A DNA stretch of 32,906 nt, taken from contig CP136752.1 in the NCBI GenBank assembly GCA_033471095.1, positions 269,433 to 302,338 of the forward strand. Reading direction: 5' to 3'. Below the pieces are notes generated by a model, which saw only the letters and a program-made list of their open reading frames with translations, was not told the origin of the DNA and did no database searches. The stretch is from Nitrosopumilaceae archaeon AB1(1). Lineage in GTDB: Archaea > Thermoproteota > Nitrososphaeria > Nitrososphaerales > Nitrosopumilaceae. Both the position numbers and the translations under genes were made by a program. Positions within the stretch are counted from its first letter, which is position 1, and each line of letters begins with the position of its first letter. Shown piece by piece: positions 29,934 through 32,196 of the stretch.

Positions 29934-31460
29934 CTAATGATGTGGATTCTTGGCAGCAAATGGATAATAATATTTGCCTCCCAATCCCCATGGGTCGTCA
30001 ATATTCGCATGTTTACCTTTACCAGAACTATATATCATATTACCCAACCAAAGCGCAGTGCCGGCAGCCAATAAAATTGCACCAATTGTTGCTATCTGAT
30101 TCATTGCTATCCATTCAGGTATAGGAGGATAATCGTAGACGCGTCGTGGCATGCCATACAATCCTAAAACATGTTGTGTAAAGAATACCATTACTGCTCC
30201 TACAAGAGATAAAACAAAGTGTGCTTTGGCCAAGCCTTCATGATACATTCTACCAGTGATGTATGGAAACATGTAATACGAAAAACCAAATGAGGCAAAA
30301 GTTATAGTGCCCATTACAAATAGGTGAAAGTGTCCCACTACCCAATACGAGTCATGAGTTACAAAGTCTAGTGGCATGGCACTATTAACAACTCCACCTG
30401 CACCAGCAGAGAAAAAGAGTGCAATTCCTCCAATAGACCACATCATGGGTGCTGCAAATTTGATTCTGCCACCCCACATGGTAGCCAAAAAGTTAAAGAC
30501 GTGCATGGCAGATGCAGGTACAGCTGCCAAGGTTCCTACCATGAATACTGTTTTTTCTGTAAATGAGAGTCCTGTAGCATACATGTGATGGGCCCAAGAC
30601 GCAAACGCTACAATACTGAGTAGTACAAATGCAAATACGCCAGAGCTGTGACTGAATATTGGCTTTCGTGAAAATCGAGGTATAATTTCATACATAAAAC
30701 CAATTGCAGGTAACACCAATACATAGACCTCTGGGTGGAATGTAAACCAAAACAAATGTGCATATGCAATCGGATTTCCACCTAGTGCGGGATTGAAGAA
30801 TCCGCTTACTCCAAGTCTATCTGTAAGTAACATGAGCAGAGCTGCGGCAAATGTTGGAATTGCAACTAGAATAATTAATGATGTTGATAGAATGGACCAC
30901 ACAAATAATGGAGCTTTACTAAGAGGCATGTCGGGGTGTTTACATTTCATAATTGTTACAACAAAGTTTATGGAACCTAAAATTGATGAGATACCAAGAA
31001 TTTTAAGTCCAAATATCCACATGTCTGCTGCAGGAGCAGGTGAACTAATCACAGAATATGGTGGACTAGCATACCAACCAAAATCAGCAAATCCTAAAAG
31101 AATTAACACCGCTGCAGGTGGAATCATCCAAAATGCAATTGCGTTCAATTTTGGATATGCCATATCTTTGTATCTGACCATGATTGGAATTAGATAATTA
31201 CCAATACCGGCTGCAAATGGAATCAAAAATAAGAATATCATAACTGTACCGTGAACAGTAAACATACGATTGAAGGTCATAGAATCGGCGATGATTTGAG
31301 CACCAGGAGAGAACAACTCTATACGAAGAGCCAAGGCCAAAGCTCCACCTATGAAAAAGAATGCTATTGAGGATATCATGTAGAGCAGGCCTATATCGGT
31401 ATGATGTGTAGAGAACATAATTTGCCATATTGGACGTGGGCGTTGTAATTCTAGAACCAT
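29934..31460 (-). CDS. coxA: Heme-copper oxidase subunit I
   Basis: The 508-aa, twelve-helix membrane protein is the catalytic subunit of complex IV. The low-spin heme ligand is the histidine in FTVHGTVMIFLF, with the partner in VVGHFHLFVMG. The CuB site is formed by WFTFHPEVYVLVLP (His-Tyr pair) and WAHHMYATGL. The tail ends with the soluble GGKYYYPFAAKNPHH. It reduces oxygen and pumps protons, probably receiving electrons from the cupredoxin encoded next. Translation starts at ATG 31460; a purine-rich GGAGAG lies about 10 nt upstream and a TATA-like ATATATATTTAAG overlaps the coxB 3' end. Confidence 0.96.
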   Translation of the reverse strand: MVLELQRPRPIWQIMFSTHHTDIGLLYMISSIAFFFIGGALALALRIELFSPGAQIIADSMTFNRMFTVHGTVMIFLFLIPFAAGIGNYLIPIMVRYKDMAYPKLNAIAFWMIPPAAVLILLGFADFGWYASPPYSVISSPAPAADMWIFGLKILGISSILGSINFVVTIMKCKHPDMPLSKAPLFVWSILSTSLIILVAIPTFAAALLMLLTDRLGVSGFFNPALGGNPIAYAHLFWFTFHPEVYVLVLPAIGFMYEIIPRFSRKPIFSHSSGVFAFVLLSIVAFASWAHHMYATGLSFTEKTVFMVGTLAAVPASAMHVFNFLATMWGGRIKFAAPMMWSIGGIALFFSAGAGGVVNSAMPLDFVTHDSYWVVGHFHLFVMGTITFASFGFSYYMFPYITGRMYHEGLAKAHFVLSLVGAVMVFFTQHVLGLYGMPRRVYDYPPIPEWIAMNQIATIGAILLAAGTALWLGNMIYSSGKGKHANIDDPWGLGGKYYYPFAAKNPHH

Positions 31461-31503: not shown

Positions 31504-31935
31504 TCAAGACGATGGATCCTCCACAATCAATTTACCACGCATATTATAGTGAATTAAGCCACAATACTCTCTGCACTGTATATCATGTTCACCTGCCTCG
31601 ACGGGGGCAAACCATACAGTATTAACTCTACCAGGTACGGCGTCTAGTAAAACTACATAGTCGTGAATATTAAAGGAATGAATAACATCTGTTGAAGTAA
31701 TTTCAAACTTGTAAGCTTTGCCAACCTCGACATGAAGTTCTCCTATCTCTTTGGTACCGTCTTCATGCTCAAAAGTCCAAAACCATTGTTAACCTGTAAC
31801 TTTGATTACTTTGGCATCTTGTGGTATATGCTCAATTAGTCTCTCTACATTCCAAGCTTCAGCACCTACATAGACTAAAAGTGCTACTACGACTCCGATA
31901 TACACCCATTCAGGCCAATTGGAATGTCCACTCAA
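31504..31935 (-). CDS. coxB: Heme-copper oxidase subunit II, interrupted by an in-frame TAA
   Basis: Read as one frame from TTG 31935 to TGA 31504, the gene encodes a membrane helix (WPEWVYIGVVVALLVYVGAE) followed by a CuA domain: QWFWTFEHEDGT, DVIHSFNIHDY, and the ligands CREYCGLIHYNM. A TAA codon at 31789-31791 falls between KVIKVTG and QWFWTF, in a conserved region, so as given the frame is broken into 48 residues and the rest. The stop is one base from CAA (Gln) or TAT/TAC (Tyr). Subunit II is essential for complex IV, so a sequence error or readthrough is more plausible than real loss. It precedes coxA and follows the small membrane protein gene by a few nucleotides. Confidence 0.85.
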
Positions 31936-31938
31936 CTA

Positions 31939-32196
31939 TTATTCACCCATCTCTTCGTATTTTGTTGGAGTAGCCTTTGGGTGTGATTCTCTGAATCGAT
32001 ATATCAGCCAAATCAAAGTACCGGATATAACTGAGCCAATAACAAATGCGATAGTCATCATTCTAAAGAATAAATTCCAAATTTCTACACGTCTATCCAA
32101 GTATTGGCCTGGTTCATCACTGGCAGCAAAAACACTGTGAATAGTAGGGGTAATTATTAAAAGTGCAAGTACGAAACATATCATCTTTAAATTCAT
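31939..32196 (-). CDS. Small membrane protein at the head of the complex IV operon
   Basis: The 85-aa product has a signal peptide (ICFVLALLIITPTIHSVFAA), a short exterior segment, and one membrane helix (MTIAFVIGSVISGTLIWLIY), ending in a charged cytoplasmic tail (FRESHPKATPTKYEEMGE). It resembles the N-terminal hairpin region of subunit II or an accessory subunit of archaeal oxidases. It begins at ATG 32196, and its stop lies just before the coxB TTG, so the two are co-transcribed and may function together. I cannot assign a named family. Confidence 0.7.
   Translation of the reverse strand: MNLKMICFVLALLIITPTIHSVFAASDEPGQYLDRRVEIWNLFFRMMTIAFVIGSVISGTLIWLIYRFRESHPKATPTKYEEMGE

Follow-up and report, generated by a model that had tools for sequence, protein, structure and literature searches.

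The in-frame TAA in coxB, the gene for the CuA subunit (subunit II) of cytochrome oxidase, is present in the sequence file of Nitrosopumilaceae archaeon AB1(1) but very probably not in the organism. The reading that we favor, at a probability of about 0.87, is that the true codon is CAA and that TAA is a methylation-associated consensus error in the assembly. Coordinates refer to the window, the whole stretch of 32,906 nucleotides that was analysed (contig CP136752.1, positions 269,433 to 302,338), unless the contig is named. The features at the coxB locus are as follows:

31504 to 31935, minus strand: CuA-domain cytochrome oxidase subunit II gene (TM2 and CuA), with a TTG start, intact apart from the TAA
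31789 to 31791, minus strand: in-frame TAA of the CuA subunit II ORF, where nearly all relatives have CAA or CAG (Gln)
31788 to 31793, strand not applicable: GTTAAC as assembled, putatively GTTGAC (GTYRAC, a HincII-type motif) in the cell
31939 to 32196, minus strand: separate 85-aa ORF for the first transmembrane helix of subunit II (TM1), split off in relatives as well

The plus strand reads 'tta' at 31789-31791, and the minus strand reads GTT ACA GGT TAA CAA TGG TTT at about 31800-31780, the TAA (31791-31789) falling in the V-T-G-x-Q-W-F-W stretch of the CuA subunit II gene (V T G * Q W), where the first-pass annotation had placed it. The frame is otherwise open from the TTG start at 31935 to the stop at about 31504. 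As had been claimed, every CuA ligand (CREYCGLIHYNM, with the His upstream of it) lies downstream of the TAA, and a PF00116 match of 45.5 bits covers this downstream segment, a conserved C-terminal CuA domain with CREYCGLIHYNM. In comparison with relatives, coxB deviates at none of 79 near-invariant columns. The gene is therefore not decaying but has been under full selection, and the TAA is recent or not real. The earlier argument that essentiality makes real loss unlikely is sound, and the search for a second intact coxB that it had called for, by PF00116 and protein searches of the whole 1.455-Mb genome (a single contig of 1,455,463 bases, 97.5% complete), gave no second CuA subunit II gene. 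Thus neither sign of a pseudogene, further decay at the 79 columns or an intact copy elsewhere in the genome, was found.

A search for the CuA family found it in 199 of 250 genomes; the comparison drew on 80 named loci of the Nitrosopumilus, Nitrosarchaeum, Nitrosopelagicus, and Cenarchaeum type. At the position of the TAA, the relatives have CAA (72) or CAG (33), and a few have Ala codons (GCN); no stop is found there among the ~105 relatives with Gln or the few with Ala. The change is accordingly taken to be CAA>TAA, and of the three codons previously listed as one base away, CAA is retained and TAT and TAC are dropped. Conserved programmed readthrough is not indicated, since the stop is not conserved among these relatives. 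The stops flagged inside the match in G110 and in genus g16 lie ahead of the start codon and proved to terminate the TM1 ORF. In the relatives that were checked the TM1 ORF is also separate, so the double stop TAATAG before the TTG start is normal and only the TAA is odd. At the Nitrosopumilaceae loci checked, the two parts of the split subunit II (TM1 ORF and TM2/CuA ORF) are often in the same frame.

The coxB stop is not an isolated case. A census of ~0.97 Mb (two thirds of the genome) against the ORFs of a single-contig relative (G012), under a fixed filter, covered 152,170 aligned codons and, within conserved alignments, picked out 24 distinct in-frame stops as candidates. The reverse control on G012 gave one candidate in 155,194 codons, probably at a gene start. 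By our assignment of names from the alignments, the interrupted genes include those for RNA polymerase A' (GARG*SLN), the large subunit of DNA polymerase D (VRVG*PEKA), UvrA (GMC*QCNG), a DUF373-like protein, an S-layer protein, and a HIT-domain protein. TAA, TAG, and TGA are all used, the aligned residues include Q, R, K, E, S, and T, and the sequence beyond each stop is conserved. Frameshifts are few in the alignments of this genome with the relative.

The location of these stops in essential genes, with conserved sequence downstream, would also be expected if the coxB stop were real and full-length subunit II were made by decoding it, whether through programmed readthrough, reassignment, or a suppressor tRNA. 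We consider such decoding highly improbable: all three stop codons are involved, opposite various residues, and no relative has a stop at the coxB site. No stop-reading tRNA was found among 40 tRNA hits (ARAGORN being among the methods used), a list from which some expected tRNAs are absent. Reassignment does not fit a replaced residue that varies and a genome in which no suppressor tRNA was found. An ARAGORN prediction of 'tRNA-SeC (tca)' at 115545 is instead an intron-bearing tRNA-Met. It is just as hard to believe that some 15-20 essential-gene stops are truly in the DNA and are read as several amino acids according to which codon comes before (Asp, Gly, or Cys). The first-pass annotation had offered a wrong base or a bypassed stop; the varied residues, the three stop codons, and the lack of a suppressor tRNA or of a relative with the stop speak against the bypass, and the wrong base is strongly supported by what follows.

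The stray stops cluster in two palindromes, which together hold 15 of the 24: GATC (10 stops) and GTYRAC (five, coxB and four others). The ten come after the codon GAT, and the five have the form GT-TAAC or GT-TGAC; undoing a single C>T at each of the 15 restores GATC or GTYRAC. Such contexts make up 5.2% of the codons that are one step from a stop, which gives p = 5e-14 for 15 of 24, a post hoc value, as these stops both suggested the motif and are counted in the test. Independent tests of the motif come from the excess of missense changes and from the genes for the enzymes, described below. At coxB the context of the stop is GG-TTAAC-A, for a presumed original GG-TCAAC-A. The suspect base would be plus-strand position 31791 (A where G is expected), immediately 5' to the adenine at 31792, the predicted target of a GTYRAC methylase.

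The other nine stops lie outside both motifs: three are TAA-TCC, three are beside an N, and three are probably antisense or edge alignments. The three TAA-TCC stops, which lie in a repeat protein as well as in RNA polymerase A', and the three N-adjacent ones are left unexplained by methylation. A CATCC/GGATG motif was considered for the TAA-TCC stops, and missense support for it was absent. Six copies of the repeat domain (VELG-x-SYSEQ), at L171:8881-9321, L222 near 11158, and L223:6506-7187, carry an identical TAA (GGC TAA TCC TAC), and the nine bases GGCTAATCC recur at the RNA polymerase A' stray stop (L157:7591). The 0.97 Mb also contains 51 isolated single Ns, none longer, of which three directly precede a stray stop; they show that some bases in the assembly are unsettled, and by eye they do not cluster at GATC or GTYRAC. 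It is in these stops outside the motifs and these isolated Ns, together with the fact that the coxB change is a lone C>T, that one could see a random error of consensus or assembly, unrelated to the motif, or an allele carried by a minority of a mixed population, the motif being a coincidence. This is unlikely, although less so than the other alternatives; coincidence explains neither the 15 of 24 stops in motifs that cover ~5% of stop-prone codons nor the presence of matching enzyme genes.

Missense changes were compared between this genome and G012, counting amino-acid changes in conserved stretches only; a context test on all substitutions had been swamped by codon-usage differences. Missense changes of the form GATC>AATC/GATT number 54 in this genome and 14 in the relative, a one-sided excess (Fisher p = 1.8e-4), most of them Asp>Asn, and the other GATN contexts are balanced (GATA 21:17, GATG 36:37, GATT 26:20). 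For GTYRAC the corresponding count is thin, 2 against 0, and one of the two is coxB itself. Since the total number of GATC sites equals that of the relative and most sites are intact, only a minority of GATC is affected. The effect is seen on both strands, whichever way the gene runs, and so belongs to the DNA and not to translation or RNA editing, a further point against decoding of the stops. Editing of U to C in the mRNA, by which Gln would be regained post-transcriptionally, would mend most of the motif stops. The coding-strand G>A changes (Asp to Asn) at the same motif would, however, need a second type of editing, whereas a palindromic DNA motif accounts for both types of change. To our knowledge, U-to-C mRNA editing of such kind is not known in archaea, and of all the alternatives we give this one the least credence.

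Another probable miscall of this type, with GATT in place of GATC, lies in the neighbouring gene:

29934 to 31460, minus strand: heme-copper oxidase subunit I (coxA), full length
30773 to 30776, plus-strand letters: GATT in coxA, by which Asn replaces the near-invariant Asp of GGDP

The Asp of GGDP is conserved in 101 of 102 relatives; here the codon (30774-30776, minus strand) is for Asn, and the site reads AATCC where it would be GATCC. As a separate observation, coxA has 19 residues that depart from near-invariant columns, compared with a median of 0 and a maximum of 13 in other genomes. Most of these changes are conservative. Its mean identity to relatives is 0.80, the adjoining CuA gene is not divergent, and a different history for coxA is possible. 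These unusual residues, and a base at the coxB stop unlike that of all relatives, are what could be cited for a real and recent nonsense mutation that inactivates coxB in this lineage. That too is very doubtful: the gene is the sole copy of a respiratory gene kept by nearly all relatives and is otherwise undamaged, and RNA polymerase A' and DNA polymerase D carry similar stops, not all of which can be real losses.

GATC is the palindromic target of DpnII/Dam, and GTYRAC is that of HincII. Genes for such enzymes were sought in the genome only after the motifs were known, and candidates were found for both:

contig ~66-69 kb: Dam/DpnM-family adenine methylase (PDB 2dpm, E 2.8e-47; TIGR00571 dam)
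contig 589222-589908: HincII-family nuclease gene (PF09226, E 1.1e-10; HincII chains in PDB)

Next to the Dam/DpnM-family methylase, whose family membership suggests specificity for GATC, lies a PD-(D/E)XK gene with a match to the DpnII nuclease family. The HincII-family nuclease is likewise adjoined by an adenine methylase, in the form of two ORFs in different frames that match halves of one methylase model, the junction reading GAGATCAAAAACAACAG. Being split in two frames, this methylase may be broken or may itself be mis-assembled; a real frameshift, if true, would leave the nuclease without its methylase. The nuclease and the overlapping-frame methylase ORFs occupy contig ~588-592 kb. A further restriction-modification locus, at contig ~759-763 kb, codes for two methylases, one of the D12 class and one of the N6/N4 type, and for a nuclease that weakly matches BsuBI/PstI; two more methylases are present in stretches L281 and L282. 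For GATC and GTYRAC alike, the base called wrongly is the G immediately 5' to the adenine that is expected to be methylated.

The following sequence of events would account for the stop by methylation. The true codon would be CAA (Gln), in GGT-CAA-CAA, the opposite strand of which reads GTTGAC, a GTYRAC site; because the comparison relative is distant, this codon is a presumed one. The restriction-modification enzymes of the cell, judging from their genes, would methylate the adenine of GTYRAC and GATC. Native methylated DNA would then have been sequenced, probably on a nanopore platform, and at a minority of sites the G 5' of the methylated A would have been called A, which is C>T on the other strand. 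The consensus would have kept the miscall, turning CAA, CAG, and CGA in coding frames into TAA, TAG, and TGA. In this scheme we infer the methylation itself, the sequencing platform, and the error at the level of the reads.

There is precedent for such errors. In native nanopore assemblies, nearby methylation causes confusion of A with G and of C with T, at the motif RACG/CGTY and in reverse-complement pairs, and PCR-based sequencing addresses these confusions (PMC11610573). Errors from G/C to A/T have been found at methylated positions or one base off (PMC12506013). The pattern here, few indels and transitions bound to motifs at a minority of sites, fits such errors. If so, a single-contig genome with very few frameshifts may still hold false stops in essential genes, and those in coxB, RNA polymerase A', DNA polymerase D, and UvrA would be reported by pipelines as pseudogenes or recoding. 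Such errors can also reveal the methylation motifs of an organism, as here, where the motifs came from the errors first and the restriction-modification genes after.

Compared with the CuA subunit II (PF00116) of other Nitrosopumilaceae, coxB has the same sequence and ligands, stands among the same neighbouring genes, and is divided in the same way into a TM1 ORF and a TM2/CuA ORF; it differs only in the TAA that replaces a Gln codon. With stop-to-sense reassignment (as in ciliate and phage codes) and with selenocysteine and pyrrolysine, the present case shares in-frame stops in conserved genes. It differs from them in involving three stop codons and many residues, in the lack of a suppressor tRNA among those found, and in its link to DNA motifs. 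The likeness is closer to the native nanopore bacterial assemblies (PMC11610573; PMC12506013), with which it shares G>A/C>T confusion, reverse-complement motif pairs, an error at most one base from the putatively methylated base, and a restriction to a subset of sites. Unlike in those assemblies, the motifs are GATC and GTYRAC and not RACG/CGTY, the organism is an archaeon, the platform is only putatively nanopore, and the errors came to light through false stops in conserved genes and not through strain typing.
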